Source: Anaeramoeba flamelloides (lineage: Eukaryota > Metamonada > Anaeramoebidae). From it: 64,000 nt of DNA. This document shows, in pieces, positions 8,638 through 46,714 of this stretch. Numbering within the stretch: the stretch's first letter is position 1; each line of letters begins with the position of its first letter. Location of the stretch: positions 9,920,001 to 9,984,000 of the forward strand of contig JANTQA010000029.1 of the NCBI GenBank assembly GCA_027625915.1, in the 5' to 3' direction. The translations under genes were made by a program, and so were the position numbers. Below the pieces are notes generated by a model. It saw only the letters and a program-made list of their open reading frames with translations, had not been told where the DNA came from and ran no database searches.

Positions 8638-11600
8638 TTAATCATCAATAACAATACCCAATTCATTATCATTATCACTGTCATTAGCATTCTCAAATTG
8701 GTTTCCAATCTTTCTATCATTATCTTTTTCATTCATTAATCTCTTATTTCTATTAATGATTTGTTTACGCATTTTATTAGCATAAAACCCAACAAGTAAA
8801 AACAAAACACCCCCAAGAATTAATGTTAGAGCGACGAAAACTGTTTCTTTAAATGATAATAATATTATTTCAAAATATTTTGTAATAATAGTAAAACAGA
8901 GAAAGAATACCCCAAGGTTGACAATATAATTTTTTAAATAAATATAACCTAAGAAAATAACAAATGTGGAAAACAATATTGTGAATAAAATTAATATTAT
9001 CCAAACAAAAATTAAGAACTCTGTGTTTTGAGATCGGCACGATATAAATAAAAATACGCCAGGGAATGCAATTAGGGATATTATATAAATTATTTCATTT
9101 TTAATTTTTGGGAATTTTTGAGAATAACAATACAAAATATACACAGAAAAAAGAATTATGATTCCTAATATTAATAAAATAGGGACTAATTTTGGTAATT
9201 CGAATTCAGGACTTATTGGAGCATCTATGATGAGAGCCTCATAACTTTGAAGATATAACAGTATATAAATATAATTAATTGTCACTAGAATTGAAATTGT
9301 TTGTAATCTTTTAAGATGAATTCGATAAAATACACTGGCCAAATAATGGATTATTCCAAAAAATAATAAACCTATGAATGATAAACGAATATCCATAAAT
9401 GCAAAAATATTGTATAATATTGTAAAGAAGAAAAATAATAAATAGAAGATCGTTGATTTGGCAAAATACGAAACACATATGAATATAACGGCAAAGAATA
9501 GATAAAATAATGAATTATTTTTCAAAATTCTAGATAAAAGAGCAATTGAGAGGAATAAAAGAATAATTGATGAGCTTACAAATATTACTCTTGTGAATCT
9601 CTTGTGTTTATATTTATATGACTGTAGGAGAAAAATACAAGATAAAATGAGTACAATAGAGAAACACAGAATACCTAAATTGCGTTCTTCAGGAGTATAC
9701 GTCACAATTACAAAGATTGTCCATATCAAGAATTCAACAGCAGACAATAGAAATAATAGGGGGTATTGTTTTAAGAACTGTGAATTATATTTTTTTTCCT
9801 TTTTTTCATACCTGTGGGTGTCACCATGTCTAGTATTTACTTTTACTGTTACCTTTCCTTTTTCTTTTGTTTTTTCTGTTTCTAATTCTGTTCCTGTTTC
9901 TGTTTCGGTTTCTGTTTCTGTTTCTGTTTCTAAATCGATTTTTCTTTCTCTTTCTTTTTCTTTTTCTTTTTCGGTTTCTGCTTTCTCTCTACCACCCAAG
10001 ACATACACTTTACCTTTTTCTATTATTTCTATTTCAATTTTTTTTGTGTTTTTATCTTCATTTTTATTATCAAGAGCTTGATTTCCTTTATTATGATCAA
10101 AATTTAAACAAAATATTTTAATAAAAAATGAACAAAGACTCAAAAATACCCAACAGAAAAATAATACCCAATAAATACTTTCGAAAAGATGACTCGAACC
10201 CTTCTTAAACTTAATAATCATATCTGCAATTAAAAAAATTGATAATGTTGTAAAGCAACCATTTATTAAAAATAAATATTGAGCTATTTTATAATAATTG
10301 TCTGTTTTTGTGACCTTTTGGTAATATATCGCAAGTGCTAATAATAAAAACATCACACTTAATAATATAATTACTCTTGCTGCTACAGGTACTTCATACC
10401 ATTTCAGAATCAAATTAATTGTTTGTAAAATTAACCATACAGATAATTCAACCAAACTTAATATCAAAACAATGATTGAATGATTGGTTATTGTCAGAAA
10501 AGGATTTTCTTTTTTATCAATAAATAGATAAACCAAGCAATATGAGAATAATAATGTAAATAATCCTGAAATTAATATCAAATTACAAACCATTTGTAAA
10601 GACCAGAATTCTTCTTTTTCTTCTTTAAACATATCAGAGATCAGAAAAATTGTCATTATCACAAAAGATGAAAAAATACCTAAACAAACCCTTGGGGCTA
10701 TTGTTTTGTAATTTCCATTTTTTGAAAATAAGTATCCCATAATCTGAAAAATAATTATGACCAATAATAAAATAATTACCCTTGCTGCGACAGGTACTTC
10801 ATACCATTTTCGAATCAAATTAATTGTTTGTAAAATTAACCATACAGATAATTCAACCAAACTTAACATCAAAACAACGAAAGAATGATTGGTTATTGTC
10901 AGGAAAGGATTTTCTTTTTTATCAATAAATAGATAAACCAAGCAATATGAGAGTAATAATGTAAATATTCCAGAAATTAATATCAAATTACAAACCATTT
11001 GTAAAGACCAATCTCGGTTTTTATCTTCTTCAAAGATCATATCAGAGATTAGAAAAATTGACAATAGCACAAATAATGAAGAAATAAATAAACAAACTCT
11101 TGGGATTGTCATGAAATCTCCCTTTTTTGAAACAAAGTCACCAATAATCTGAAAAATAATTATGACCAATAATAAAATAATTACCCTTGCTGCCACAGGT
11201 ACATCATTCCATTCCAGAATCAAATTAATTGTTTGTAACAAAGCCCAACAACAGAACAAAATATAAACTAAAGGAAGAGTTTTTAAATAACTAAAGAAAT
11301 TTGTTTTTGATAGTTCCTTGAAATGGTAATGGTTAAAAAAATGAATAACCACTAAAGATAAAATAACAATACCCACTATTGAAATAAAGATCAAATTAAG
11401 AACACTTTGGAAACCCCATTTAATTGCCAAGATATCTGCAATTAAAAATATTGTCACAATTAAATAACAGGCTTCAAGAAAAATGAAACCCTCTGCAATT
11501 TTAATGTGTTTATATATTTGTGATATAGAGCCTGCCAACATGAACAAAATATTATAAAGAATTATAACTATATATTTCTCAGGATTACCTAAAGTCTTCC

Positions 11601-14600
11601 AATTCACTGTTATATAAATAAATTGGGTAAACATCCAAATTATAAAAATTGTGATACCCAAAAACAAATTAGGTGACAATAATAAAAAATCTTTGATATT
11701 ACGATCTTTTGCTTTCGTTTGAATATCATTTTCAAATTTATTTTGATCGGAATTTCTTTTTGTTGACAATTTTTCGATTTCAAGTATAGTATCTATTTTT
11801 TGGATCTCATTCAATTCTATTTTATTCAACATTCTGTATTTAATTTTTTTTGGTACTTCTATTTTTACATTCTTAACTATCACTTTTCCATTTTGATTTT
11901 CATATACTGATCCCTCCTGCTCAATCATTTCAGATTCAGACAATGGTTTTAGAACAATTATCGATGAGGGTGATTTAGATCCTTTAACTTTCAAATGTGA
12001 TGGTGACAGTGACGGTGATGATGAAGATGAAGACGAAGATGAATCTGACAAAGGTGATGAAGAGAAAATATTCTCTTTTTTAGATTCCACATCAATTTTT
12101 GGATCTGTTTTTTCATATTTTTTTTTCACCAGAGCTTCAAATAGGGCAATTAGAAAAATACCTACTGAAGAAAAGAGTAGATAGAAATTCACGTTTCTAA
12201 ATTCATAATCATTTTTTTTGATTAACATTGGTGGCATCAGAAATATACTGATTATATAAAAGGAAGAGAACAATAAAAAATTCACCTGCGAATATTTTGG
12301 ATGGTTGTGCTTTGCAAAAAGAATTGAAAGAATCATAAAGAGGAGATTTAATGAGATTAAAATGATAAAGTTCATTTCGATAGGGTTCGAATGCCAATTT
12401 TTAATGATTAGTATTGTTTGTATAATTAACCAAGTCAAGAATTCTGGGATTACAATTATTAGAATTGGTATTCTTTTCACTTTTTCCTTCAGGGTCAAAT
12501 TTTTGAGATCAATTTTGGCAATTTTTACAACAATCAGTGTCAGAATGACAAGTCCACAACAGGAGATTAATAGAATGAACATTTCCATTTGTGTATCATA
12601 ATTTGTACTATCACCATCAGCATCACCAAAATTAATATTTTCAGGGATGATAAAGCACGAAATGGAATATAATGCCGAACTTGCAAGTATAAGCAATTTG
12701 GCAATTCTGGGATAATTACTGTTTTTTTTTTCCAAATACAACCCAATGACAAAGCAAATAAGAAATGAACTACATAATAATGAGATTGTAAACTGTTTTT
12801 TAATTGTATCATTTGATAAGAGTATGATCATTTGAATAATAATCCAGATTACAAATTCATTTAACGCTAGCAATAAAATAGGAGAGATTTTGAAAAAATT
12901 CTTATAATTAAGCGAACGTAAGGCAATGTTTGTCAATTTGAAGACTACAAGTGCAATTACTAATGTGCCAATCCAAGACGATAGCAAAAACCAGGCCGAA
13001 TTCTGTAAATCAAAGTCGTCCTTCTCCAAATACATCTGTGGTATTAGGAAATTGATGAGGGTATAAATACAGCCACTTAGAATAAAACAAAATTTGCCCC
13101 AATTTGGCCTTTTATATCTCAAACAGAGACTACCACTTACTAAACTAACCAAAAACGCAAGAACTAATAAAAATATTCTTACACCCTTATTTATTTTTTC
13201 CCAATTATAAATTAGGGATAGGAGTTGAAATATGCTCCAAGCTGCAAGGAGAAGCTTCCCATATAATTTTATGGGCGAATAATAAAAAAATAATTTGATT
13301 TTATTGTCCATGGACCCGTTCAAAGTGTTTTGACAAAATTTTTCAAGAACAATTGAGGCAAGAATTGTCATAGTCCAATTAACCAACAAGATATTAGAAA
13401 TGCTCTGAAGTTGGCCCAAATCTTCTTTCCAAAAAATTTTAGAAAATAAAACGGTACAAAAGCCATATTCAAATGAGGTAAATAAAAAGATGATCTTTGC
13501 AGTAGCATATTTTTGGTTTGTTTGAAATACTGTTCCCAGGGCAATCGGAATGATCAGATAATAGAGAAGTAATAATATTTTTTGGAAATTTTCATACATA
13601 TCCCAATTTATACAATGTAATACGAATTGATAAACAAACCAGATAATTAATTCAACAAGGATTAAACCAAAAATTCGGAACAATTGGATGCTGGTTCGTA
13701 ATTTTAGGAAAAAAAGGTGATTAAAAAATTGATACCCATCTCTAATGGTAAATTGGATCATATTTGAACAGATTTCAATAATCAAGATGAATGAAATGAA
13801 AAGAATTACCCACGTTATTAATAATACCCAGCAAATGGTTTGGCCACTCCAGTTTCCCTTCTTAAACTTTATAATCATATCTGCAATTAAAAAAATTGAT
13901 AATGTTGTAAAGCAACCATTTATTAAAAATAAATATTGAGCTATTTTATAATAATTGTCTGTTTTTGTGACCTTTTGGTAATATATCGCAAGTGCTAATA
14001 ATAAAAACATCACACTTAATAATATAATTACTCTTGCTGCTACAGGTACTTCATACCATTTCAGAATCAAATTAATTGTTTGTAAAATTAACCATACAGA
14101 TAATTCAACCAAACTTAATATCAAAACAATGATTGAATGATTGGTTATTGTCAGAAAAGGATTTTCTTTTTTATCAATAAATAGATAAACCAAGCAATAT
14201 GAGAATAATAATGTAAATAATCCTGAAATTAATATCAAATTACAAACCATTTGCAATTTCCAGAATTTTTTTTTTTCAATGATCATATCAGAGATCAGAA
14301 AAATTGTCATTATCACAAAAGATGAAAAAATACCTAAACAAACCCTTGGGGCTATTGTTTTGTAATTTCCATTTTTTGAAAATAAGTATCCCATAATCTG
14401 AAAAATAATTATGACCAATAATAAAATAATTACCCTTGCTGCTACAGGTACTTCATACCATTTCAGAATCAAATTAATTGTTTGTAAAATTAACCATACA
14501 GATAATTCAACCAAACTAAATATCAAAAGAATGGAAGAATAATTGGTTATTGTCAGGAAAGGATTTTCTTTTTTATCAAAAAATATATAAACCAAGAAAT

Positions 14601-16614
14601 ATGAGAGCAATAAAGTAAATACTCCTGAAATTAATATCAAATTACAAACAATTTGTAAAGACCAATTTAGGTTTTTATCTTCTTCAAAGATCATATCAGA
14701 GATCAGAAAAATTGACAATAGCACAAATACTGAAGAAATACCTAAACAAACCCTTGGGGCTATTATTTCGTAATTTCCCTTTTTTGAAAATAAGTATCCC
14801 ATAATCAGAAAAATAATAATTACAAATAATAAAATAATAACTCTTGCTGCTACAGGTACTTCATACCATTTCAGAATCAAATTAATTGTTTGTAAAATTA
14901 ACCATACAGATAATTCAACCAAACTTAACATCAAAACAACGAAAGAATGATTGGTTATTGTCAGGAAAGGATTTACTTTTTTATCAATAAAGAGATAAAC
15001 CAAGCAAAATGAGAGCAATAAAGTAAATAATCCAGAAATTAATATCAAATTACAAACCATTTGGAAAGACCAGAATTTTTCTTTTTCTTCTTCTTCCTTC
15101 AACATATCAGAGATCAGAAAAATTGTCATTACCACAAAAGATGAAGAAATAAATAAGCAAATCTTTGGGGCTATTATTTTGTAATTTCCCTTTTTTGAAA
15201 ATAAGTACCCCAAAATCAGAAAAATAATAATCATAAATAATAATATAATAACTCTTGCTGCTACAGGCACTTCATGCCATTTCAGAATCAAGTTAATTGT
15301 TTGTATAATTAACCAATCACATAATTCAACCAAACTAAATAAAAAAACAATGATTGAATGATTGGTTATTGTCAGAAAAGGATTTTCTTTTTTATCAATA
15401 AATAGATAAACCAAGCAATATGAGAGCAATAATGTAAATAATCCTGAAATTAATATCAAATTACAAACCATTTGTAAAGACCAGAATTTTTTTTTTTCTT
15501 CTTTAAACATATCAGAGATCAGAAAAATTGTCATTATCACAAATACTGAAGAAATACCTAAACAAACCCTTGGGGCTATAGGTTCGTAATAATCATTTTT
15601 TGAAAATAAGTATCCCAAAATAAGAAAAATAATAATCATAAATAATAATATAATAACTCTTGCTGCTACAGGTACTTCATACCATTTCAGAATCAAATTA
15701 ATTGTTTGTAAAATTAACCATACAGATAATTCAACCAAACTTAACATCAAAACAACGAAAGAATGATTGGTTATTGTCAGGAAAGGATTTTCTTTTTTAT
15801 CAATAAATAGATAAACCAAGCAATATGAGAGTAATAAAGTAAATATTCCAGAAATTAATATCAAATTACAAACCATTTGGAAAGACCAATCTCGGTTTTT
15901 ATCTTCTTCAAAGATCATATCAGAGATCAGAAAAATTGACAATATTACAAATACTGAGGTAATAAATAAACAAACCCTTGTGATTAGTTCATAATTTTCC
16001 TTTCTTGATGAGAAGTATCCCAGAGAGAACAAAAATATAATTATTAATAATAAAATAATAACTCTTACTGCTATAGTTTTTAGGTTCCATGTCAGGGCTA
16101 GTTCCATTGTTTGTGTTAATATAAAGCATAAAAAAATTAATATTAAAAAGATAATTTCAGGCAATTTTTGAACAAGTGCCGCTTTTTCCAAATCATGAAC
16201 CTCAAGATCAAACCTTTTGATCGTAATTTTGATAAGTATTATATATTCAAATAATAAAACAAGACTGATCACTGCAATGAGTTGTAAAACAGTAGTTTTC
16301 TGATTTTCACTGAGTAAACCTGCTTTTTGATCAAGAACAATAATGAGAAGAATGGTTGATACACTGGCAAGAAGAGTACCAAAAAAAAAGATAATTCTTG
16401 ATACAACCATCTTTTGTTTGAGATGAAAGAGATACGAAAGTATATAGAGTGGGCAACAGAAGAACAGTAATATGACAATTTTTAAAATAAAATGGATACT
16501 TTCCCATTCTTCTATTAAAAGCCATACAATCCCAGAATAAATGGATAACCCGCCAAAAAATAATAAAAAATTAACCAAATAAAGACATACATTTTCCTTA
16601 TTTAGTCTCAACAT
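8638..16614 (-). CDS. Giant polytopic membrane protein of tandem DUF2157-like modules
   Basis: A single uninterrupted frame of about 2658 residues runs from the first in-frame ATG (16614) to TAA. The frame stays open upstream to about 16771 without an ATG, so a 5' exon is possible. The protein is almost wholly hydrophobic: about 14 modules of about 135 residues, each with roughly four membrane spans. A typical module contains IFLISDM, a W-S-L-Q-M loop, CLVYLFIDKKENPFLTI, then WLILQTINLILKWYEVP and AARVIILL. Modules 1-5 and 12-13 are nearly identical, while 6-11 have diverged. A Ser-rich charged linker (about residues 1505-1640) and a Glu/Thr/Lys linker (about 2170-2280) split three membrane blocks. 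The acidic Asn/Asp-rich C-tail is probably cytosolic. The pattern 'W-x-x-VP-x-x-x-R, membrane span, then FLI-x-DM', the N-terminal 'G-W-L-W' start and the C-terminal R-x-x-x-NLG...ITKYFE-like end resemble the prokaryotic DUF2157/DUF4401 membrane family. That assignment is by eye. Function is unknown. Confidence 0.8.
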   Translation of the reverse strand: MLRLNKENVCLYLVNFLLFFGGLSIYSGIVWLLIEEWESIHFILKIVILLFFCCPLYILSYLFHLKQKMVVSRIIFFFGTLLASVSTILLIIVLDQKAGLLSENQKTTVLQLIAVISLVLLFEYIILIKITIKRFDLEVHDLEKAALVQKLPEIIFLILIFLCFILTQTMELALTWNLKTIAVRVIILLLIIIFLFSLGYFSSRKENYELITRVCLFITSVFVILSIFLISDMIFEEDKNRDWSFQMVCNLILISGIFTLLLSYCLVYLFIDKKENPFLTITNHSFVVLMLSLVELSVWLILQTINLILKWYEVPVAARVIILLFMIIIFLILGYLFSKNDYYEPIAPRVCLGISSVFVIMTIFLISDMFKEEKKKFWSLQMVCNLILISGLFTLLLSYCLVYLFIDKKENPFLTITNHSIIVFLFSLVELCDWLIIQTINLILKWHEVPVAARVIILLFMIIIFLILGYLFSKKGNYKIIAPKICLFISSSFVVMTIFLISDMLKEEEEKEKFWSFQMVCNLILISGLFTLLLSFCLVYLFIDKKVNPFLTITNHSFVVLMLSLVELSVWLILQTINLILKWYEVPVAARVIILLFVIIIFLIMGYLFSKKGNYEIIAPRVCLGISSVFVLLSIFLISDMIFEEDKNLNWSLQIVCNLILISGVFTLLLSYFLVYIFFDKKENPFLTITNYSSILLIFSLVELSVWLILQTINLILKWYEVPVAARVIILLLVIIIFQIMGYLFSKNGNYKTIAPRVCLGIFSSFVIMTIFLISDMIIEKKKFWKLQMVCNLILISGLFTLLFSYCLVYLFIDKKENPFLTITNHSIIVLILSLVELSVWLILQTINLILKWYEVPVAARVIILLSVMFLLLALAIYYQKVTKTDNYYKIAQYLFLINGCFTTLSIFLIADMIIKFKKGNWSGQTICWVLLITWVILFISFILIIEICSNMIQFTIRDGYQFFNHLFFLKLRTSIQLFRIFGLILVELIIWFVYQFVLHCINWDMYENFQKILLLLYYLIIPIALGTVFQTNQKYATAKIIFLFTSFEYGFCTVLFSKIFWKEDLGQLQSISNILLVNWTMTILASIVLEKFCQNTLNGSMDNKIKLFFYYSPIKLYGKLLLAAWSIFQLLSLIYNWEKINKGVRIFLLVLAFLVSLVSGSLCLRYKRPNWGKFCFILSGCIYTLINFLIPQMYLEKDDFDLQNSAWFLLSSWIGTLVIALVVFKLTNIALRSLNYKNFFKISPILLLALNEFVIWIIIQMIILLSNDTIKKQFTISLLCSSFLICFVIGLYLEKKNSNYPRIAKLLILASSALYSISCFIIPENINFGDADGDSTNYDTQMEMFILLISCCGLVILTLIVVKIAKIDLKNLTLKEKVKRIPILIIVIPEFLTWLIIQTILIIKNWHSNPIEMNFIILISLNLLFMILSILFAKHNHPKYSQVNFLLFSSFYIISIFLMPPMLIKKNDYEFRNVNFYLLFSSVGIFLIALFEALVKKKYEKTDPKIDVESKKENIFSSSPLSDSSSSSSSSSPSLSPSHLKVKGSKSPSSIIVLKPLSESEMIEQEGSVYENQNGKVIVKNVKIEVPKKIKYRMLNKIELNEIQKIDTILEIEKLSTKRNSDQNKFENDIQTKAKDRNIKDFLLLSPNLFLGITIFIIWMFTQFIYITVNWKTLGNPEKYIVIILYNILFMLAGSISQIYKHIKIAEGFIFLEACYLIVTIFLIADILAIKWGFQSVLNLIFISIVGIVILSLVVIHFFNHYHFKELSKTNFFSYLKTLPLVYILFCCWALLQTINLILEWNDVPVAARVIILLLVIIIFQIIGDFVSKKGDFMTIPRVCLFISSLFVLLSIFLISDMIFEEDKNRDWSLQMVCNLILISGIFTLLLSYCLVYLFIDKKENPFLTITNHSFVVLMLSLVELSVWLILQTINLIRKWYEVPVAARVIILLLVIIIFQIMGYLFSKNGNYKTIAPRVCLGIFSSFVIMTIFLISDMFKEEKEEFWSLQMVCNLILISGLFTLLFSYCLVYLFIDKKENPFLTITNHSIIVLILSLVELSVWLILQTINLILKWYEVPVAARVIILLSVMFLLLALAIYYQKVTKTDNYYKIAQYLFLINGCFTTLSIFLIADMIIKFKKGSSHLFESIYWVLFFCWVFLSLCSFFIKIFCLNFDHNKGNQALDNKNEDKNTKKIEIEIIEKGKVYVLGGREKAETEKEKEKERERKIDLETETETETETETGTELETEKTKEKGKVTVKVNTRHGDTHRYEKKEKKYNSQFLKQYPLLFLLSAVEFLIWTIFVIVTYTPEERNLGILCFSIVLILSCIFLLQSYKYKHKRFTRVIFVSSSIILLFLSIALLSRILKNNSLFYLFFAVIFICVSYFAKSTIFYLLFFFFTILYNIFAFMDIRLSFIGLLFFGIIHYLASVFYRIHLKRLQTISILVTINYIYILLYLQSYEALIIDAPISPEFELPKLVPILLILGIIILFSVYILYCYSQKFPKIKNEIIYIISLIAFPGVFLFISCRSQNTEFLIFVWIILILFTILFSTFVIFLGYIYLKNYIVNLGVFFLCFTIITKYFEIILLSFKETVFVALTLILGGVLFLLVGFYANKMRKQIINRNKRLMNEKDNDRKIGNQFENANDSDNDNELGIVIDD
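9840..9990. repeat. Hexanucleotide-like coding repeat (Glu-Thr linker)
   Basis: Within the giant membrane gene, alternating TCTGTT / CTTTTT hexamers (plus strand) encode Glu-Thr and Glu-Lys dipeptide runs in the second cytosolic linker. Replication slippage is the likely source, and the length is probably variable between strains. Confidence 0.75.
10200..10790 (-). repeat. Near-identical internal duplication, copy 1 (modules 13/14)
   Basis: These bases of the membrane gene match 13863-14445 almost base for base, apart from a short variable loop near 10600-10630 (14252-14283). Silent sites match as well as coding ones, so the copies were made or homogenised recently. Confidence 0.85.
13863..14445 (-). 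repeat. Near-identical internal duplication, copy 2 (modules 5/6)
   Basis: Partner of 10200-10790, with the same gene and orientation. The two lie 3.7 kb apart with diverged modules between them, which fits gene conversion or unequal exchange better than simple adjacent duplication. Confidence 0.85.
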
Positions 16615-23270: not shown

Positions 23271-23820
23271 TTAGTCAAAAAGACCACCACCAAACATGTC
23301 GTCATCTGATTCGGATTCAGATTCTGGCTCTGGTTCTGGCTCTGGTTCTTCTTCTTCTTCTTTGTCAGCTGTGCTTGGTTCTGCAGTTACAGTTCCGACT
23401 TTGAGATTCAAAAGTTATTGTTTGGTTTTTTTGTTTTTTTTTAATTTTCACACAAAAAAAAAAAAAAATAAAAAAGCAAAAAAATAAAAAGAGAAAAAAA
23501 AAAGCAATGAATAAAAAATAAAAAATAAAAAACAAAAAACAAAAAGAAAGTTTGTGAAAGAAAGAAACAGTTTGAAAAAAGGAAAAAGATCCTTTTAAAA
23601 AAACCTTACCTGAACCACCAGAGCTAATTAAGTTTCCAATTTCGTTGTTTTCAAAAAATCTAACATACATGTCAACCATATAGCTTTCGAATGGAATGTT
23701 GGCTGATTTGAGAACGTTTTGGATCTTTTCAGATGTTACTTTGATTTCATCATCATGGAGCATAAGAGCAGAGTAGATGATAGCTTTTTCTGTAATTTGT
23801 TCTTGGCTTAAGTTTTCCAT
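23271..23820 (-). CDS. RPLP1: 60S acidic ribosomal protein P1
   Basis: Two exons, 23610-23820 and 23271-23398, separated by a 211-bp intron (donor GTAAGG, acceptor CAAAG), give 112 residues, the usual P1 length. Exon 1 encodes the helical dimerisation domain, with IYSALMLHDDEIKVTSEKI and an EIGNLISSGGSG hinge start. The P1-type EKAIIYSALMLHDDE separates it from P2. Exon 2 encodes a short hinge, an unusually regular Glu/Pro/Ser tail (EPEPEPEPESES) and the conserved terminus SDDDMFGGGLFD. P1/P2 dimers bind P0 and form the ribosomal stalk that recruits elongation factors. The terminus has GGG inserted relative to the common MGFGLFD ending. Next gene upstream on the same strand is RPS13. Confidence 0.96.
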
Positions 23821-25086: not shown

Positions 25087-25696
25087 TTATTGTACCAAAG
25101 CACTAGCTGTTGATGAAGAGTATTTCCAATTTGGAGGAAGTTGTCTAGTTTTTTTGTAGTATCTAGAGATTCTATAAATTTTGGATTCGACAAGGATTAA
25201 ATGGAATTTGGCGTCTTTGTCTTTTCGATTCTTTTCTAAGTGTTTGCGGATTGAGACAGCCTTTTTGATTAAATGATATAAATCTTCTGGGATTTTTGGT
25301 GCAAGTCCTAAGATTTCATAGTGTCGAAAATAGAAGAGAAAAAAAGATTACTTTTTAAGTCTTGGCAAAAAGAAAAAAAAAAAAACAAAAAAAAAAAAGA
25401 AAATAAAAAGAAATTACAACAAAAAAAACAAAAAAAAAGAAAAAACAAAAGATTAACAAACCATTAGCTTTAAGAATTCGAAGAATTCTGTTTGACGTAA
25501 CTGATTTAACTTGGCCAACACCGAAAAGATCTCTCAAGTGAATACCAATTTGAGATGGTGTAAGACCCTTTTTAGCCATTTTACATATTTCTTCAATTAC
25601 TTGCTTTGGTGTGATTTTCAACCATGAAGGTGGTGTTTTTTTATAAGGTCTTGCAGAACGCGAGATGCCTTTTCCTGATCCAAACATACGGCCCAT
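25087..25696 (-). CDS. RPS13: 40S ribosomal protein S13 (uS15)
   Basis: Two exons, 25462-25696 and 25087-25307, flank a 154-bp intron (donor GTTTGT, acceptor TCTTAG) and give 151 residues, exactly the length of human RPS13. The protein starts [18 protein letters not shown] and carries the diagnostic [16 protein letters not shown], then after the junction [37 protein letters not shown] and the terminus [17 protein letters not shown]. The intron falls inside the Gly codon of ANG/LAPK, and reading through it gives a poly-Phe frame that is an artefact. It acts in the small subunit body, binding 18S rRNA. Start ATG is unambiguous. Confidence 0.97.
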
Positions 25697-27411
25697 TTTG
25701 AGAAATTATTAAAAAAAAATTGAACAAAAGAATAAAAACTTAAAAAAAATGAAACAAAAAGACTTTTCAAATTTAGCCGGTCTTGTATTGTGAGTGTAGA
25801 ATTATTACAGCACTTTATTAACAACCATAATTTTATTCAGTAAATATGAAAAAACATTATAGAGACTTGATCACTCAATACAATATTTTTTTTTTATAAG
25901 GGTGTTGTATAGATGGTTTTAGAATTTTTCAAACTAACAATTTAGTATAAATAAATTGTTAACCATGACAAAAAAGAAGTTCTAAATAGTTTTTAATATT
26001 TTGGTTTGAAAATCAATTTGATATAGATCAATTTATAGATAAAAGGTTTATTTAAAAAAGTATGATCAAGATATATTGAATTAACAAATTCAAAATAAGA
26101 CTCTTGTGGTTTATTGTCAAACCTAAAAACACTTGGAAATATCAACAACCAGAGAATTCTGTTTTTCTGATCAATTGATGATGTTAGTAAAAATTCAAAA
26201 TTTATTCACATTCTTTACATAAATATCAAAATTCGTGAGGATTTCATGATATTTTTGTTTAGTCATGATATCTTGTTAAGTCACGATAAAGGTATAAAAA
26301 TCAACAATAAAGTTTCAAAAATAGCATAATTCTAAAAATCGGGATATTCTATAGTATCGCCATAATATGTCAAATTGCACAAATTGTTTAAAAATCACAA
26401 TAATGGTCTATAAAGTGGAATAAAGTTCAAAATATAGTGATAAGAAGGTAAATCGCAAAATAAAAGTTGATGGGCTTTTGAACTATTCAATAATTTTTTC
26501 AGAAAGAAAAATTTTGTTTGATCAAAAAACCGATGACTGAAAAAAAAAAAGTTATTCTTTTAAAAAACAATAAAAAAGATATTTTTATCCAATCAAGGAT
26601 CAGATCAAGAGTTTCCATTGTATTTTATTTTGATTTGGTTAATAGATCGATCTATCGTTTAGAACAACAACAATTTCAATAAATAAAAGAAAATTATTAG
26701 TTTCAAAGTTAATAGAGAAGTTAAAAATTTTAGTTGAATAAAAAATCTTCCAAAACAACCCACCCTTTTAGGTTCTTTTAAGTATATATTCTTATTCTAA
26801 AACATTTTTCGACAATTTAGGAAAACTGAAAGGAGTTGGATAAGTTTTTAAAAGCTTTCAAAAGCTTTCACAAGAACCTAGCAACATTATCACCAATTAT
26901 TCAGTTTTTTTTAATACAATTTGTTTTTTTCTTGTCAATCTTCTTCTTCTTATATCTTTACATTGTACAGAAAATACAACTAGAGTTTAAAGAATAATTA
27001 CTCAACCACAATAGAGCAAACTTTATAAATATTTTATTGAAATTATTTTTCTTCAGATAAAATATATTAAAAAAAATATAAAAAATGATGCTATATTTTC
27101 CAGATCTACAACACTTAATACATTTTATATTCTTTACTTATATATTGTGTATATTCCCAGTGCCAAAACATTCTGGCCAACAAAGAAACTCCTCTATGAG
27201 TAAATTTTCTTGATATAGGCAAATTTTAGATAATTTTGAAAATTTTAATTGTAAAAACCTTTTTAAAAAAAGATATTTTTGAGTGTGAAGGGATATTGAA
27301 ACTTTGAATCTAAAAGAGACTTCACTGCCTAATTTAAAAAATGATTACGAATCAAAAGTAAATAAGAATTGGATATTGCTTTTTTCAATTTTTTGGTCAT
27401 TTTTTTCTGTT
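25697..27411. other. Intergenic spacer upstream of RPS13
   Basis: No gene is recognised. From about 27220 the sequence matches repeat family K. The stretch 26220-26470 is rich in short words such as 'CATGATAT', 'CACGATAA' and 'AATCGCAA' without a clear repeat unit. Confidence 0.5.
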
Positions 27412-28244: not shown

Positions 28245-29615
28245 AAATTAAATATTACTGGAAATTTATCTCAAAGAAACAATTTGGATTTAATACGGGT
28301 ATCGGAACTAGAATACCAGTTCTTAATTTTTTAAAAAAATTAAAATTAAAAGATTTGAAAAAAAAATAAAATAAAGATTGTTACAATAGATATAGCAAAA
28401 TGTTTTGATTCAATTCATCACAGTCTAATAAGAGAATCAATTAAAACAATTATAAAAAACAAAATTCAAAATAATTTTTTATTAAAATACTATAAAGGTT
28501 AAGGAAGAGGCATTTATCAAGGAGACCCACTATCGCCAAATTTATTTGCTTTTGTTAGTCATTTTTTAATTTTAAAAATTGAAAAATTAGTTAAATATAT
28601 ACAAATGTTTGCCGATGACCTGATAATTATAATAAAATCAAAAAATCACAAAAAAAACTTAAAAAAATATATAAAATAATTGAAAAGTTTGGGTTAAAGG
28701 TCAATACGGACAAAACTGTTGTCACCAACAAACTTAAAAAAATCAAATATTTAGGAATAAAATCTAATAAAAAAAACACATATATTTAACAATAAAATGA
28801 AATGTAATTGTACTCTTTGGAAATATCAATATATATTCAAATCAAACGAATTATCTAATTACCTCAAAATTATCCATATAAAGCTATTTGTTTGAGTCAA
28901 CTGTTATATGGACTAGAATTATTTAGTTTCACAAAAAAAGAATATGAAGAAATTGATATACTAATTAATCTCCATATTACAAAAATATTTAAAATTCAAA
29001 GATCTACTCCAGTCTTAGCGTATCGAAATGAAATCAACTTGTTATCCATTAAAACGATTGTAAACTTGAGAAAATGGAAATTTATCCAAAAAATTAACAA
29101 AATAAAAGAAAAAGAAATATCAAAACTTATTAAATTTGACTATAATCCAAACAAAGAAATAAATATTTAAAAAACAAAAAATATTAATAAACTAAAAATT
29201 AAGATAAAAAAACAATACTTTAATATTTTAAAAAAAAATCAAAGTTGGAAAATTAAATACTATAATAAAATTATTAAAAATGAAAACTTTTACTTTAAAA
29301 TAAAAAACTACCTCAAATTTAAATCCAGTACTACTTTTCTAAAATTTCGCACTTTTACGAACGGACTAAATAGATACTCATATGTCTTAAAAAAGAAATC
29401 AGAAAATGATACATTTTAAAAAAAAAAAGAAAAATGCAAAAAAATCTGATTATTTTACTCAATATTATGAAAATATAAATCACTTTATTTGGTATTGTGA
29501 AAGATATAAATTTATCAGAATCAAATGAAAAAAAAAATACACAAGTATAAATTGAAAAAAAAATTGAATTTATAAATATTGGATCTTTGGGCGAATTACT
29601 CATCGTTCCAAAATA
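28245..29615 (+). mobile_element. Decayed non-LTR retrotransposon (LINE) reverse transcriptase region
   Basis: Conceptual translation on the plus strand, in shifting frames, shows reverse transcriptase signatures in order. These are KQFGF-x-x-GIGT near 28280, VTIDIAKCFDSIHHSLI near 28380, GIYQGDPLSPNLF near 28510, FADDLIIII (the catalytic FADD box) near 28605 and a KYLGIKSN-like block near 28745. Then LLYGLELF...IQRSTPVLAYRNEI follows as an open stretch at 28892-29170, and a late HFIWYCERYKFIR motif lies near 29480. Many stops and frame changes show it is dead. The 5' part (endonuclease, ORF1) is absent, typical of 5' truncation or of loss at the MITE boundary at 28237. The clade was not determined. 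Confidence 0.85.
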
Positions 29616-33647: not shown

Positions 33648-36600
33648 ATGACTGAAATGGAAATTGAAATTGAACCAAAGGAAATATGGGAACCGTCTGA
33701 AGGAATATGTTATACAAAGCATCCATTTATTGGTGTTACTCAAGATCATTTGTCGTTACGAACAATAGGCGAGCCCATTGTTATTGAAGAAAAGTATGGT
33801 GACGATTGGCTGAGGGGCCATACGCTGATCACTGAAAGGAAAGGCATCTTTCCAAAAAACTTTGTGAAAAGAGACACAAAGCGAACACTTACAAAGGAAC
33901 ACTTTTTGTCCTCGAATTGTCACCCTGTTCGGGAATTTGATCCTGTGATTTTGGAAAGCGAGCATTCACTTAAACAATATTCGTTACAATTATTGTCCAA
34001 GAAAACTGAAGAATTAAATTTAAAATACTCAGAGTTTCAAGCCATCATGATGTTGATGAACCAAATACTGAAGTACAGATTAGAATTTTTATCAAATATG
34101 ACTGCGAGTGAATCGTTGTTTGCAATTAAACAACGAATTGTCAGCAATCTTGATCAAATGAACGAATTTTTTTCGATCAAGAAACAAATAAGGAGGGCAA
34201 ACGGAGATCCAGTATTGATCGACTACTTAGGCTTTTCGAAAGCCCATGAACTATATCTACAAAACTGCCAACAGAGCATTTCTTCTCAAAGAAGAGATCA
34301 TGAAATAAACAAGAGTGACAAACATTACCAAATATTAATAGATTTCCAAATGCTGATTAGCAAGATGAAGGATCCATATTCCATAATGTTCCAAATTTAC
34401 TCTCATCAAAAAAACCAAATGGTTAGCGAGTCTTTTGTGGTGTACAGCTTTGGAAGAAGAGGAGGAAGTGATCTCGATGTGGATGTGAAAAGTCTTCGTC
34501 AAGAAATGCCATTTACAACAAATAGGTTTGATAACTGCAAAAATAAAACCATTTTTCTGGATTTGAACGAAAAAGATCTTAGTTCCGACTTATTTTTAGT
34601 CTCCCGCATTTATAGGAGGGGTCTATTAAACCCCGAGTTGAAAAAAAATAAAAGTAAAAAAATAGATAATTATCCCGAATATCGTATCCCATTTGGGTGT
34701 TCAGTTCATAAATTAGATCAAAATTTCATAAAGCGATCTACAAATGAGAAACAAAATCTGAACTTACCAATTTTTACAACTCAAAAAGAGAACAAATTTA
34801 ATGTTTTACATGAATTAATAATCAATCAAAATGAAAAGGCAACACAATTGGATGGTCCAATTGGTATTAGCTTTGCAATGAAAATATACAGAGGAGAATA
34901 CAAAGCAATTGTTAACACGTATCCGGATTATGATGGGAATGCATTAAAAGACATACCAACCACAATAAAAACAAGTTTACCAGAAATAATTTTACCCAAT
35001 TACCAAAGAAATGATTTATATATTACCCTAAATAGTTTAAATATTATGAATGCTAAGAAGGCTAAAAATTTTGAATTGAGGATGTGGGTACGAAAAAGAA
35101 TTGAATCCAATCAAAATAATGGTAACCAAAAACAAAAACAAAAACAAAAACAAAGCCAGGAAAGGGATGATAAATTCTTTTATCAAAAAGAAAAGGCAAT
35201 AAGTTATGGTTCCTCTGATGACAAAAAGAAAATGTTTATTAGTTATATATGTGGGTACAGAAGTAACCCAAAATGGAATGAAACAATAAAAATAAATATA
35301 CCCCCAGAAGAATATCCAAATGTCGAATTGTTTCTTGAAATTTATCATTGCAAACCAACAAAGTCATACCTCCATTCCATTGGTGCTGTTAGATTAACAA
35401 ATCGAGATTGTTCAATTATTGCTCAAGGGGAAAAAACAATTGATTTATTTAAATGGGATGCAAAGTTAGCAAAAAAAAACCCCTTCTATTATATGCCCAA
35501 TGAAAAGGAATCAAAGGAAAGGCATTCAAAGGTGCAAATTTTTAAATCAGCATTAACATTCAATATTAATTTATGTTCTACATCATTAACCCAACAAGAA
35601 AAATTAATATCGTTTCTTAATTGGAGATTTAATATTAATAGTTTAGATCAAGTTTTCCAAAAGTTAAAATATGTGAATGGTGAGGAAAAAATCAAATTTA
35701 TAATCAAAATTCTCAATACCCTCTTTGAAATCTTAAATGAACAGGGGGGTCAAAAGCAAGTTCAAGAAAGAATATTTGAAGAAATTTTAAATTTTTATAC
35801 TGATATTATGAAAATTCAAGGATTTCGATCAGTATTAGATCATGTAATTAATGATTATTATAACTTTGAGAATCAAAAGTTATCATTCACAATCAAAAAA
35901 AACTTTTCATTGATTTATTTGCCATTGTTAACAACCTTAACAAATATATTCAAAATTGAAGAAGGTAATAAAATGAGAAAAGTGATCCAAACAATGAAAG
36001 GATTGAACTTTATCTTTAAATTGATTATTCAAAGTTTTCATTTTAATCAAAAATTCAATAGCCAAAATCAGAAAAATAACAATCAAAATAATAAATATAA
36101 TCAAAATAATAATCAAATGGATTTAAATAGTCAACAACAAAAACAACATAAAGAATTACAAAAACAACAAAAGCAAACACAAAAACAACAAAAACAACAA
36201 AAACAATTACAAAAACAACAAAAAGAATTACAAAAACAAAAGAAGCTACAGATTACTCAAAATAGGATAAATTCTGATCACCATTTCATTAGACAGTTTA
36301 ATAAATTAATGAATTTATTTAGTGATTTCATGTCCTTAACAAAACCAAAATGGGTAAAGAGCGCACAAAATGTGGCACTAAAGCATTTTTCAACAATGTT
36401 TACAGATTTATTAAAAATACTAGATAAAAATATCATTACTAATTCGCTGATCAAAATGATCAAAAGTGTTAATGTGGAAGGAAGGGATCTGATGAGAAAA
36501 GATAAATTAATTTGGATCAATTCAATAATTAATGGCCAGTTAATAGAGCAATCAAAATCCAGAGAAATAATTATAAAAATTATTAAAGAGCAAATCAATA

Positions 36601-39335
36601 GTAATATTGTAAAAGGTGAAATGTATTTAGAGATCTGTGCATCAATTATGAATTCATTATTTATCCAAACATTTGAAAAATCGAAAAAAAATGATTTAAA
36701 TCAATGGATCATTCAATTAATACCATTTTTAAAAGAGATCCTTCGAGGACTAGAATATAATGACAAATTAAAACAACAAATTATGAAAAAAAAAAATAAA
36801 TGTATTGAAGAACAACAAAACAACAATCAACAGGAATTCAAAAAGCTCCAAAAATTAAATTTGAAATTCCAAGATTTACAAAAAACACAGAAAGAAACCA
36901 CAATTAACAACCAAGAATCAATTCAGCAGATTAAGTCAAGATATCAAATTGAACTGCAAAAGCAACTGGTTGTTGAAAGCTCATTAATTTCATCATTCAT
37001 TAGTTTATTTCATATGATGAACCATCAGCACATTTCAATATTAATAAATATTTATCCGAAAAATTCAGTTTATCAAATCCTATTTTTAGAACAAATTCTA
37101 AAATTATTTTTATATATTTTAACGAAAAAAAAAAGATTAATATTAAATAACCAAAGTAATCAACTATCAAAAAAGTTTCATTTAGTGAAATCAATGAATT
37201 TATCAATTTCAAAAATTTTAATCATCATTGAGTTTTATAAAAATATTTCACAATTATTAATAGCAAACTTCTTAGATGGAAATTACCAATTTAATATATG
37301 GAGATTATTTATTTTATCATTATTAGAATTTATTAATTTACCAGAATTGAGATTAAAATTCAATACAAATAATATAAATCACAACAATCTGAATATTCAT
37401 AATATTAAGAATAAGAATATTGAAAAGATCACAAATAAGAAGCAGAATAAAAATAAGAATCAGAATAAGAATACTAATAGAATTGCAAGCAAAAGCCTAA
37501 GAAAAAGAACTAGCAATTATAATGATCAAAGATGTAATAATACAAATAATTATCTTTTAAATCCAGAATTCTTCAAAGAACAATACCTTGATCTAAGAGA
37601 AATTGCATTAATCATTTTAGATAATTGCTTTTATCATTTAAACGAAAAAATACTGAATTTTATACCAACTGACATTGAACATTTTTTAACATTATTATTA
37701 TTAGACAATACAGAGCTAGTTAATTTCGGATTTGAGTTTTATTTTAAATTCTTTTTAGAGGAATTCAAATCAACTGGGGATATTAAAGGTATTGAGCAGG
37801 GCACCGTCTCAATGGTTTGCAATATTATTGATACAAGCGAGGAAGAAAAGTTTTTTGAAAATTTCTTTATAAAATTTGAAGAAAAATTACAAGAATGGGA
37901 ATCGTTAAAAGAATATGGAAGGCATTTTTTGAACCAATTAAAACAATTAATTGAAAAAATAACTAAATTAAAGGATTTTAAGGGATCAAATTTTGAAGAG
38001 GAAAAATGCCAAGTTTTAATGGATATTACTGATTATTTATATAAAACAAAAAGATATCAAATGTTTGCCAAATATTGCCAATTGTTATCTAATTTGCATC
38101 TCCAGAATAAGAATTTTACCGAAGCTGGCTTATCATTAGTAAAATTAATCAAAATTTTAGATTGGGATTCTAGTAATCAAAACAAAACCAAATCAAAGAT
38201 CGATGATATTATTTCAAATTTGAATCAATTCAACCAAAGGCAATTTCAAATAGCAAGTAAAGAAAATTTACTTAAGAAAATTATATATTATTTAAATAAA
38301 GGGGAATCTTGGGAATTGGCAATAAAATATTTACAATTATTAAAAGCCTATTATTTAAAAACTTATAACTACTCAAAATTGTCAACATATTTATCTAAAG
38401 AATCCGAATTTTATAAGAATATTGTTACAGTGGAACGGTTTTATTCAACCTATTTTAGAGTTGGTTATTTTGGTAACGGTTTTAATGGTGAACAATATCC
38501 AGGTATTAAAGACCAAACATTTATTTACAAGGGAGAGATATTGGAAAAGCTTCCAGAATTCATGGACAAATTAAAAGAGAAATACACTAATGCCACCATT
38601 GACTCCAAAGATCCAACCAAGGAGCAAATGGGTGGCAATGGGCAATATATACAAGTTTGTGCTGTTTTGCCAAGCTCAGAGGGTCTAATTGTAAGTCAAC
38701 AGAATAAGAAAGCTGTTAATAGTCATTCAATCCCAGAAAAAATATTAAAACATCAAACACAAGAAAAAATTAATGTATTTGTATATTCCCAACCCTTTAG
38801 AAAATCGAAAACAAAATCACAAAATCAATTTGCTAATTTGTGGATTAAAAATCATTATTTTATAACAGCCAAATCTTTCCCCACTACCTGTAGAAGATTA
38901 AAAGTTCATAAAAGAATTATCAACGAAATTTCACCAATACAAAATGGTATTAATTCAATAAAACAAAAAAATATAGATCTCATTTCAATAATCACCAAAT
39001 ATCAAACAGAGACAATATTAAATATTAATCCTTTATCAATGATTCTTAACGGAATAATTGATGCTCCCGTAAATGGTGGAATATACATGTATGTAAATGC
39101 CTTTTTAGAAGTGCAATATTTATTAAATAACCCTAAAAATGAAGATTTAATAATAAAAATGAAAAAAATGTTAGTCAAGCAATTGGAATTTGTCAATATT
39201 GGACTTAATTTGCATAACCGTTTATGTCAAGATAATTTTAGACCATTTCATGACAAAATGAAAAGAAAATTCAAGGAGATGGAAAAAAAGTTAGCCTTTT
39301 ATTTGAGTATAACTCAAAAAGATCAAGATAATTAA
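33648..39335 (+). CDS. DOCK-family Rho guanine nucleotide exchange factor
   Basis: An intronless frame of 1895 residues from an ATG preceded by an A-tract. Residues about 35-75 resemble an SH3 domain (E-x-x-x-DDWLRG...GIFPKNFV). Residues about 453-640 are a DHR-1 (C2-like, phosphoinositide-binding) domain with FISYICGYRSNPKWNETI and LEIYHC, followed by helical/ARM-like sequence. Residues about 1450-1885 are the DHR-2 exchange domain: RFYSTYFRVGYFG, NVFVYSQPFRK, FANLWIKNHYF, RRLKVHKRIINEISPIQNG and the nucleotide-sensor segment LNGIIDAPVNGGIYMY, with the key Val retained. SH3 plus DHR-1 plus DHR-2 places it nearest DOCK-A/B types, which activate Rac. Gln/Lys-rich (about 805-870) and Asn/Lys-rich (about 1240-1295) tracts are insertions. 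Probably cytosolic and membrane-recruited, controlling actin and motility. Confidence 0.95.
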   Translation: MTEMEIEIEPKEIWEPSEGICYTKHPFIGVTQDHLSLRTIGEPIVIEEKYGDDWLRGHTLITERKGIFPKNFVKRDTKRTLTKEHFLSSNCHPVREFDPVILESEHSLKQYSLQLLSKKTEELNLKYSEFQAIMMLMNQILKYRLEFLSNMTASESLFAIKQRIVSNLDQMNEFFSIKKQIRRANGDPVLIDYLGFSKAHELYLQNCQQSISSQRRDHEINKSDKHYQILIDFQMLISKMKDPYSIMFQIYSHQKNQMVSESFVVYSFGRRGGSDLDVDVKSLRQEMPFTTNRFDNCKNKTIFLDLNEKDLSSDLFLVSRIYRRGLLNPELKKNKSKKIDNYPEYRIPFGCSVHKLDQNFIKRSTNEKQNLNLPIFTTQKENKFNVLHELIINQNEKATQLDGPIGISFAMKIYRGEYKAIVNTYPDYDGNALKDIPTTIKTSLPEIILPNYQRNDLYITLNSLNIMNAKKAKNFELRMWVRKRIESNQNNGNQKQKQKQKQSQERDDKFFYQKEKAISYGSSDDKKKMFISYICGYRSNPKWNETIKINIPPEEYPNVELFLEIYHCKPTKSYLHSIGAVRLTNRDCSIIAQGEKTIDLFKWDAKLAKKNPFYYMPNEKESKERHSKVQIFKSALTFNINLCSTSLTQQEKLISFLNWRFNINSLDQVFQKLKYVNGEEKIKFIIKILNTLFEILNEQGGQKQVQERIFEEILNFYTDIMKIQGFRSVLDHVINDYYNFENQKLSFTIKKNFSLIYLPLLTTLTNIFKIEEGNKMRKVIQTMKGLNFIFKLIIQSFHFNQKFNSQNQKNNNQNNKYNQNNNQMDLNSQQQKQHKELQKQQKQTQKQQKQQKQLQKQQKELQKQKKLQITQNRINSDHHFIRQFNKLMNLFSDFMSLTKPKWVKSAQNVALKHFSTMFTDLLKILDKNIITNSLIKMIKSVNVEGRDLMRKDKLIWINSIINGQLIEQSKSREIIIKIIKEQINSNIVKGEMYLEICASIMNSLFIQTFEKSKKNDLNQWIIQLIPFLKEILRGLEYNDKLKQQIMKKKNKCIEEQQNNNQQEFKKLQKLNLKFQDLQKTQKETTINNQESIQQIKSRYQIELQKQLVVESSLISSFISLFHMMNHQHISILINIYPKNSVYQILFLEQILKLFLYILTKKKRLILNNQSNQLSKKFHLVKSMNLSISKILIIIEFYKNISQLLIANFLDGNYQFNIWRLFILSLLEFINLPELRLKFNTNNINHNNLNIHNIKNKNIEKITNKKQNKNKNQNKNTNRIASKSLRKRTSNYNDQRCNNTNNYLLNPEFFKEQYLDLREIALIILDNCFYHLNEKILNFIPTDIEHFLTLLLLDNTELVNFGFEFYFKFFLEEFKSTGDIKGIEQGTVSMVCNIIDTSEEEKFFENFFIKFEEKLQEWESLKEYGRHFLNQLKQLIEKITKLKDFKGSNFEEEKCQVLMDITDYLYKTKRYQMFAKYCQLLSNLHLQNKNFTEAGLSLVKLIKILDWDSSNQNKTKSKIDDIISNLNQFNQRQFQIASKENLLKKIIYYLNKGESWELAIKYLQLLKAYYLKTYNYSKLSTYLSKESEFYKNIVTVERFYSTYFRVGYFGNGFNGEQYPGIKDQTFIYKGEILEKLPEFMDKLKEKYTNATIDSKDPTKEQMGGNGQYIQVCAVLPSSEGLIVSQQNKKAVNSHSIPEKILKHQTQEKINVFVYSQPFRKSKTKSQNQFANLWIKNHYFITAKSFPTTCRRLKVHKRIINEISPIQNGINSIKQKNIDLISIITKYQTETILNINPLSMILNGIIDAPVNGGIYMYVNAFLEVQYLLNNPKNEDLIIKMKKMLVKQLEFVNIGLNLHNRLCQDNFRPFHDKMKRKFKEMEKKLAFYLSITQKDQDN
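36050..36250 (+). repeat. CAA/AAC trinucleotide-type coding repeat in DOCK
   Basis: Runs of CAA and AAT/AAC encode an Asn- then Gln/Lys-rich stretch between the DHR-1 domain and the helical region. It is slippage-prone low-complexity sequence, probably a disordered surface loop. Confidence 0.8.
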
Positions 39336-44321: not shown

Positions 44322-45295
44322 TTAAAATTTATATCCACCTTTTGAATTTGTATTCGAGCTAATATCTTTTTCTACCATTTTTTCTTGTATTTCATAATAT
44401 TTTTGAATAATTTTTTCAGAATATTCAGAAGTTATTTTATATTTGGAGTTCTGTGCTTTATCCAATATTTCTAAAACATCTGAATTCTCTATAATGTCAA
44501 GTACTATGTTTGGGAAATTTTTCATTGCTTTTTCAATTGTAATTAAGCATGGCTCCATAAAATCAGGATCTTTATAATAATTTTCAACTAATTTTATGAG
44601 ATAACCAAGCCCGTCAATATTAATTAGTGATTTAATCAGTTCGGCGTTTGTGGAGTAGAAACAATTATGTAATACCCAAGCTGTTTCAATTATTAGTTCC
44701 TTGGGGAACTTTTCTGATTTGGAAATCTCCATAACATGGAAAATAATTTCCGATTCAATGATATTTTCAAGTTGTAAATCATTGCCACAGCACAAATTTG
44801 AAATGATTAATAAAATTTGCATTTTCGTTCTTGTGTGGGTAGAATTTGTATAATTTTCATATAAGTTTTCAAGAATTCCTAAATTTATCAACTCTTGTAA
44901 TTGCGATTCGTCACCACATGCAAAATTGTTTAAAACGAGAAGAGAATAATAAATACCCGATTCTTTATCCTTTGAAAGTAATTTGATAAGTTTTTTAACA
45001 GCGCCAAATTCTGCAAGAACTGGGTGGTTTTCTGGTTTCTTTGAGAGGTAACTTAACCCATTACAAACATTTTTTAAAGTTTTTCGTTCATCGGTATCAA
45101 GAAGTTCGACAAAAATTGGAATTAATTGTTGTGTATAAGAAAAATCTGCTGTTGGTCTTCTTTTGCATAAATTTAATATTACCCATGTTGCTTCGGGTAA
45201 TAAATTTAAAGAATAGAAATTTTCAAATTGATCAAGAATTCTCGGAACATAATCACTTTCTAAAAATTGATCTCTATATTCAATTTTATCAAGAA
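44322..45295 (-). CDS. Importin alpha, C-terminal exon (ARM repeats)
   Basis: One exon of 974 nt, opened by an AG acceptor (AAATAG at 45296) and ended by TAA, encodes 324 residues of armadillo repeats. It includes LPEATWVILNLCKRRP (matching the TWTLSNLCRNKNP region of importin alpha), NGLSYLSKKPE, LLVLNNFACGDESQLQ, ETAWVLHNC and a final DKAQNSKYKI...EKIIQKYYE like the terminal L-x-x-LQNH...LIEKYF. Importin alpha binds nuclear localisation signals and importin beta for nuclear import. Several canonical Trp/Asn positions of the NLS groove are replaced (W-x-x-x-N gives V-x-x-x-N, and W-x-x-S-Y gives C-x-x-L-S-Y), so binding may have drifted. It matches the N-terminal exons at 51079-51894 in order, and a roughly 8-residue W-x-x-GNI piece between them was not found. 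Confidence 0.85.
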
Positions 45296-46714
45296 CTATT
45301 TTTTTATTATTTTTTAAAAAAAAAAGTTTAACAATATTGTTTTGATAATTTATTTAAATCAATTTTTGTTTTTTGTTTTTTTCAGTTATTTTTATCATTT
45401 TTTTTTTTGTTTGTTTTTTTTTTATTTGTTTGTGTTTTTTTTTTTTGTTTGTTTGTTTTTTTTTTTTTGAATTATCAAAAATAATATTCAAAAGATGAAA
45501 AAATATTTTATGAATATAAATTTTATTTTTTTTTGAAAAAAATGTCTGATAATTAAACAATGATCAAAGAGTGACATAGAAAATGTTATTGAAACAGGGT
45601 GATGATAAAGAATTATTGAAATATTATTTTATTTTTTTTTTATTCAAAAAAAAAAATTTTCAAATAAAAAATGAAATTATACTTTTAGGATTTGTTTGAT
45701 ATCCATATATTTCAAAATAAATACCCACATAACAAGAATACTTCAACCTAGTCTCGGATTTGTAATTGATCGGTTGGTATTGAAAAGTCGTGAAAAAGAA
45801 AATTTAAGGTTTATTGATCTATACACAATTTACTTAAGGTTTTTTAATTTGGTTCGGGTTATTAATTTATAATATTTTTTTTTTTTATACATAAAATTTT
45901 CTTTGAATATCTTTCACCAAACCGTACAAAATATTTAATTTTCAAAATTTGTTCAAAAAAATGTGTAATTTTGAGGTAGAAAATTAATGTATGTTATTAA
46001 ATACAAATAAAATAAAAATAAAAAATAATCCTTAAGGGCCGAGTCATTACGGTTAAAAATAATTTTCTGAATTGGATTAAAAAAAATTTGTAATTTTTAT
46101 GAGACCCTAATACAAATCAAAAAATATCCAAAATGTGAAGTGCGATCGAGATCTCCAAAAATCAACAATCTAAATAAGAGTACATTTTTAGAAAAAAGTG
46201 TCAAAGAGAGACACCCAATTTCCCCTTTAGAATGGTTGAGAGTATATAATTTTGAAAACAACTGTGTTGGGTTTGAAGTGTCTCTATTTGAATATTTTTG
46301 AGATATTGAAGATATTTTTTTTTTCATTTGTTTCTATTCTCAAATGAGTTATTTTTTCTCAAGAATCTTAGAAAATCCAAACTTTGTCAAATATAGAGAG
46401 TTATTAAATAACCACAAATCAGATTAAATTGAATTAAATTGATTGCGAACTTTAAGAAAACAATTTGTTTCAAATCAAAGAAATTTAACCCTTTGGTTAT
46501 TTAAAAATAAAAAAAAGTAAAAATTTAATTTTTTGGAATTGAGATTACTTTAAAACTTTTTTTGAATTGAATTTTTTTGACAAAGAATCCTATGAATTTT
46601 TTTTTTTGTTATTTGAATTTTTTCAATCAAAAGAATGGCTATTCCACACTGCCCTTTTTAGTTTTCAAACCACTCCTTGCGTATGGAGTAAATCCATGTT
46701 AAATGACTAGACCC

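Follow-up and report, generated by a model that had tools for sequence, protein, structure and literature searches.

DUF2157 (PF09925) is a family of membrane proteins of bacteria and archaea for which we know of no demonstrated function. Its unit has four spans, with a Trp ending the first (TM1) in a segment of the W-x-x-x-P-x-x-x-R/K type and a FLI/LIxQIY-like segment closing the third (TM3). Of the 375 bacterial genomes surveyed, 185 belong to the same class as Zhongshania (Gammaproteobacteria) and 190 to that of a MAG from the Hyphomicrobiales (Alphaproteobacteria), the two seed genomes counted; a DUF2157 match at E ≤ 0.001 is present in 39 and 37 of them, respectively. The listed matches fall one per open frame in both classes (49/49 and 41/41), a count that may overlook additional, weaker copies in the same frame, and 74 of the 90 matched frames have 300–550 codons, the longest having 1008. 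As far as surveyed, the building unit is single-copy in the bacterial members. Longer proteins exist in Pantoea (L006:1438-3384; 736 amino acids according to the annotated coordinates, roughly twice as long as usual) and in Paenibacillus (L008:1501-3363, within a 773-codon frame), each with one listed PF09925 match. In the cases checked, a GDYXXLXY gene follows the DUF2157 gene, as identified by Pfam in L001 and L002, by annotation in L007, and by eye in L003, L004, and L009.

Three other systems invite comparison. PIEZO mechanosensitive channels are very long eukaryotic proteins made of many four-span units. DUF2339 (PF10101), a family of long bacterial membrane proteins with a profile of 659 positions, is matched weakly by a composed DUF2157-like consensus (E = 6e-4, below the cut-off), which hints at a possible relationship between the two families, both uncharacterised. 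The third system is the four-span membrane domain of the Lia/PSP envelope-stress proteins: in the available text of PMC11237479, the DUF2157 helices at the N-terminus of LiaF are unified with LiaI as the "LiaI-LiaF-TM sensory domain," and a tandem array is not among the arrangements described there.

The window (the whole 64,000-nucleotide stretch analysed, from the metamonad genus Anaeramoeba) contains a frame of a different design, in which one gene is predicted to encode one polypeptide with 15 tandem four-span modules and a long C-terminal membrane part. Whereas each of the 90 bacterial matches is listed alone in its frame, 15 units here share 2658 amino acids. The unit itself is familiar, but for a tandem DUF2157 protein no description was found in the literature searched. 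The features are as follows, all on the minus strand.

8638..16614, minus: giant intronless ORF of 2658 amino acids, with an ATG start and a frame open to 16770
16174..16590, minus: m1, N-terminal DUF2157-like module (Pfam E = 5.4e-4; 11.3 bits with the bacterial profile), the longest branch of the module tree
13747..16176, minus: array A, modules m2–m7, of which m3–m6 are near-identical and m7 has a divergent second half (TRF, HMM, and Pfam per module)
12106..13746, minus: old diverged modules m8–m11 (20.7–54.0 bits with the internal HMM), m9 being the best single Pfam match
11731..12105, minus: Ser-rich hydrophilic linker of 125 amino acids, predicted to be cytosolic from its position between modules and the charge rule
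11317..11730, minus: old diverged module m12 (internal HMM, Pfam)
10087..11313, minus: array B, modules m13–m15, for the most part a later copy of the m5–m7 stretch (TRF array at 10360-11238)
9871..10086, minus: Lys/Glu-rich hydrophilic linker of 72 amino acids, predicted from sequence to be cytosolic
8641..9870, minus: C-terminal membrane part with about 12 predicted spans (Kyte-Doolittle) and no Pfam family above cut-off

The initial annotation had announced a single intronless frame of 2658 codons without naming a strand; the frame is there, running from an ATG at 16614 to a stop at 8638. Upstream of this ATG it stays open without a further in-frame ATG, so that the gene may have an additional 5′ exon. 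The other five frames of the interval contain 92–298 stops each, and the GC3 of the giant frame (0.245) resembles that of the DOCK gene in the same window (0.252). Kyte-Doolittle windows give 70 candidate spans, nearer 70 than the 60 or so that had been proposed. To our knowledge, few membrane proteins have this many spans, and a count of about 70 exceeds that of every characterised one known to us.

Compared with Pfam as a whole, the protein matches DUF2157 first (E = 9.5e-29; 100.4 bits summed over 14 stretches), the next family standing at E = 0.014, with four families in all at E ≤ 10. When the modules are cut singly, 15 of 15 match DUF2157 in one common register (E from 4.1e-7 to 0.28), and the family is first-listed in 12. 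The best is m9 (E = 4.1e-7, 30.2 bits; 28.7 bits in the genome search), and the weakest are m8 (E = 0.28) and m15 (E = 0.032). The curated cut-off of PF09925 is 32.4 bits: the whole-protein score lies above it and none of the 15 single modules does, which is why the protein is called a divergent relative of DUF2157 and not a plain member. Nine of the 15 modules were also reversed; none of the nine matches DUF2157 at E ≤ 10, and they do match other membrane families, with E down to 3.7e-4. Lone weak hits therefore mean little here, and it is the agreement between modules that constitutes the evidence. Two candidate families were set aside because reversed modules reach like strength with other families, namely YlaC (6.9e-4, at the start of the C-terminal part) and Acyl_transf_3 (0.0011, in m10). 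PIEZO (which has models in Pfam), DUF2339, DUF4401, and transporter families are not among the four whole-protein matches at E ≤ 10. A search of NCBIfam with the protein gave nothing, and PHROGs and PADLOC gave weak matches only (E = 0.0072 and 0.18).

A second test used ten bacterial DUF2157 members (L001–L010) gathered apart from Pfam by means of a composed consensus, L001–L008 being Pfam-checked. The profile was built from nine of them, as L010 is a near-copy of L009. Its best single stretches are m9 (15.1 bits) and m1 (11.3 bits); no stretch of the reversed protein scores above 5.7 bits, and none of 20 block shuffles above 3.6 bits. Once composition bias is corrected for (by 175.6), however, the whole protein scores −50.0 bits, and it is single stretches alone that stand out; in a six-frame scan of the window with this profile, the matches listed do not include the giant frame. 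In a profile–profile comparison with hhalign, the module profile aligns with the nine-member bacterial profile at 93.6% probability (E = 2e-7, for one comparison) along 63 columns that begin at the Trp segment and finish where TM3 ends, whereas the controls give 0.1% (reversed), 0.0% (later part of the bacterial proteins), and 0.2% (their C-end). The value is 86.1% without m1 and m9, 92.4% with the divergent modules only, and 7.0% with the array modules only; hence, the homology signal rests on the old modules. The earlier suggestion of a DUF2157-like module is borne out by these results, DUF2157 coming first for the whole protein with no clear match to another family, and the giant protein very probably consists of divergent DUF2157 repeats.

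An internal HMM built from seven near-identical copies recovers 14 copies above 20 bits (m2–m15), with a period of about 135 amino acids. It misses m1 (−0.6 bits), which the Pfam profile matches. The modules had been put at about 14 of about 135 residues: the period stands, and the count becomes 15 once m1 is included. At the DNA level, TRF finds an array at 14017-16073 within array A, with a period of 405–408. Array B is largely a copy of m5–m7 (1043 aligned columns at 94% DNA identity, with an exact block of 383 nucleotides). Judged by these sequences, the modules sort into an old diverged set (m1 and m8–m12) and a recent array (m2–m7), part of which was re-copied near the C-terminus as m13–m15. 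The copies are not exact: among the 36 pairs of nine array modules, DNA identity ranges from 51% to 95% and dN/dS from 0.37 to 1.01. As dN/dS is below 1 in 35 of the 36 pairs, the array modules diverged under mild purifying selection. In a tree with nine bacterial domains, all 15 modules lie on one side of the branch separating them from the bacterial ones, with long branches and weak support (73/92).

Two motifs had been assigned to every module, and both proved less general. W-x-x-VP-x-x-x-R is found in 8 of 15 modules (m3–m7 and m13–m15) and is absent as such elsewhere, and FLI-x-D/Q-M is found in 10 of 15. In the older modules, it is chiefly the Trp, the Gln of TM1, and the TM3 end that persist. 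Weighted conservation reaches 0.83–0.89 for Trp 21, Trp 33, Gln 25, and Gln 103, and 0.54 for Glu 17, and no residue is invariant across the module alignment. The gene can be regarded as a natural concatemer, whose modules, from fresh to very old, would show which residues the fold needs.

The charge distribution suggests how the modules sit in the membrane. Lys and Arg outnumber Asp and Glu in the TM2–TM3 loops (44 versus 10) and in the links between modules (40 versus 23), as compared with 45 versus 53 in the other two loops. By the positive-inside rule, this excess indicates that modules start and end in the cytosol. All modules would then share one orientation, entering and leaving the membrane on the cytosolic side; both hydrophilic linkers would be cytosolic, and the conserved Trp, which ends TM1, would face the outer or luminal side, as would the end of TM3. 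A weak AlphaFold2 model of m3 and m4 (pLDDT 62.7, pTM 0.45) has four helices per module, and Foldseek with this model returns 221 matches at E ≤ 10, none of them at E ≤ 0.001. By sequence, no relative was found in the PDB, the best match (E = 0.025) being an unrelated enzyme.

Both ends of the protein had been described as resembling the ends of DUF2157 proteins. This is supported for the N-terminus, where m1 aligns with DUF2157 from profile position 35 onward. For the C-terminus the evidence is suggestive only. The start of the C-terminal part is a possible 16th unit (DUF2157 at E = 0.3, seventh in the list) and was left out of the module count. DUF4401 (PF14351), named in the same proposal, matches neither the whole protein at E ≤ 10 nor the C-terminal pieces at E ≤ 1 in Pfam. 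In the bacterial proteins, the four-span domain precedes a C-terminal membrane region that has a characteristic end, as seen in L002, L003, and L005. A profile of this end, made from eight of the ten proteins (without L010 and without L006, which is truncated where its locus ends), finds its best match at residues 2602–2650, with 3.9 bits versus 3.3 for the best of 20 shuffles. Compared with single bacterial C-ends, the tail is equalled by fewer than 5% of 1000 shuffles for three of eight (L003, L005, and L007) and by more than 5% for the other five. For the C-ends of L002, L003, L005, and L007, none of 247 other stretches of the giant protein is as good as the tail, and for those of L001, L004, L008, and L009, 6 to 176 of the 247 are. 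The likeness of the last 50 or so residues to a bacterial DUF2157 C-end is thus weak and no more than suggestive.

The DNA comes from a protist, as had been assumed: the DOCK gene (33648-39335) encodes a protein that shares 98% identity, along its full length, with "dedicator of cytokinesis [Anaeramoeba flamelloides]," which assigns the window to A. flamelloides or a closely similar strain, and further genes of the window are eukaryotic. Two module queries (m3–m4 and m8–m11) were compared with the 254-Mb, 76-contig assembly, and among the best candidates, which were the ones scored, 17 of 17 matches fall in the giant frame (7/7 and 10/10). The bacterial partner was not found: no GDYXXLXY gene was detected in the window with a custom profile (best E = 4), nor in the assembly by a Pfam search that gave control matches in 1 of 14 genomes. 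The Anaeramoeba gene differs in this from the bacterial ones checked. Relatives were also sought elsewhere. The whole protein has none at E ≤ 0.001 among the 6826 candidates of similar length in a protein collection from which records of the window's own genome were possibly left out, and paired modules have none at E ≤ 10 among the 7993 proteins sharing most words with them. Two peptide patterns from array modules retrieved 79 stretches and no relative from a collection of genomes of 84,980 species. No relatives came from viral contigs scanned with pieces of the giant protein and with two bacterial members, nor from tblastn of modules against plasmids and of a bacterial member against phages. 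The composed consensus had no match in plasmids either, probably an effect of low-complexity filtering. According to the available text of PMC11550330, Anaeramoeba genomes are A+T-rich, and 4.1–4.7% of their genes are transferred. The paper also mentions, as possible symbiont-to-host transfers, a small number of long repetitive proteins (up to 4100 amino acids) whose discernible homologues are confined to the symbionts. Judging by the distribution of the family, the gene probably originated by transfer from a prokaryote; a DUF2157 gene would have been acquired and then enlarged by tandem duplication within the gene.

As to function, the giant protein could be a single-chain version of an assembly that DUF2157 four-helix units may form, that is, a large intramembrane platform that would respond to the state of the bilayer (its tension, thickness, or lipid make-up) and would relay this state to cytosolic partners, or hold such partners, through its linkers. 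The most likely role, proposed tentatively, is that of a single-chain scaffold or platform in the membrane with a part in sensing or organising the bilayer. The sensor part of this reading derives from the architecture of the protein and from the LiaI-LiaF-TM unification made in one paper (PMC11237479, in its available text). The analogy has limits, as neither Toastrack nor PspC was found in the giant protein, Pfam gives no other signalling domain above cut-off, and the neighbours are eukaryotic genes and not a stress operon. Taken as a whole, the account that combines a 15-module DUF2157 protein, a prokaryotic origin, and a bilayer-responsive platform is the best explanation available, held with somewhat less than even confidence. 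A stronger version, in which a lattice of some 70 spans in a single chain, built from a prokaryotic four-span domain, would be a new sensor or organiser of membrane state, perhaps in the symbiosome or plasma membrane, is speculative and rather unlikely. Whatever its role, the gene makes DUF2157 accessible to study in a protist whose bacterial symbionts are housed in a membrane network.

The same architecture could serve a transporter or channel, each four-span module or pair of modules being a pore or carrier half, and fusion fixing a stoichiometry that bacteria may build from separate chains. Such a protein might use the conserved aromatic and polar residues in or beside the spans (Trp 21 and 33, Gln 25 and 103, Glu 17), and the common orientation of the modules would let them pack as a ring or a row; but none of these residues is invariant, the four whole-protein Pfam matches at E ≤ 10 include no transporter or channel family, and the weak single-module matches (MFS_1 at 0.036 in m4) are no stronger than those of reversed modules, so that we consider a transport role distinctly unlikely. 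Alternatively, the array could be a coding minisatellite that grows and shrinks by unequal exchange, most modules being merely tolerated while the ancestral N-terminal module and the C-terminal part do the work. The dN/dS values of the 36 pairs are high for a membrane protein and speak for this, as do the recent 94% and exact copies. The missing relative points the same way, given that DOCK proteins of A. flamelloides are in the protein collection searched; it is ambiguous, since that collection may lack records of the same genome, and a gene model that is split or shorter would not fall within the length range. Mere tolerance fits poorly with a frame kept over 8 kb, with dN/dS below 1 in all pairs except one, and with m8–m12, in which the span pattern and, for the most part, the Trp and Gln persist although these modules are hardly alike. 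The minisatellite is accordingly judged unlikely.

Two further explanations carry much less weight. The protein might be a spacer of the symbiosome membrane, or an adhesion or recognition protein, and as such one of the "long repetitive proteins" of PMC11550330, whose available text reports both a high load of transferred genes and long repetitive proteins with symbiont-only homologues. The terms "DUF2157," "transmembrane," and "membrane protein" are absent from that text, and the array-module patterns found no relative in the genomes of the 84,980 species, which leaves this reading improbable. An artefact of assembly or annotation, or a pseudogene, would be suggested by an array of near-identical units. 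It is very improbable, because the window lies at 9.92-9.98 Mb of a long contig (C29), the units differ from one another, no stop interrupts the 2658 codons, and third codon positions resemble those of the DOCK gene.

The other genes of the window are of several kinds. The DOCK gene (plus strand) is intronless and has DOCK_N, C2, TPR, and DHR-2 domains above cut-off and an SH3 domain below it. A 103-codon frame (28859-29167, plus), by eye the tail of a reverse transcriptase, has no Pfam match at E ≤ 0.01. The gene at 53203-55335 (plus) is GTPase-like by eye, its product opening with a P-loop-like segment and closing with a very long tail of low complexity, rich in Lys, Glu, Ser, and His; its one Pfam match is below cut-off and lies within the low-complexity part. 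Four genes are apparently split by introns: one for ribosomal protein S13/S15 by Pfam (25183-25705, minus), one for an acidic P1-like ribosomal protein recognised by eye and ending in DDDMFGGG (23283-23820, minus), one with Arm repeats, importin-like by eye (44325-45353, minus), and one with JAB and MitMem_reg pieces, eIF3f-like by eye (60655-62243, plus).
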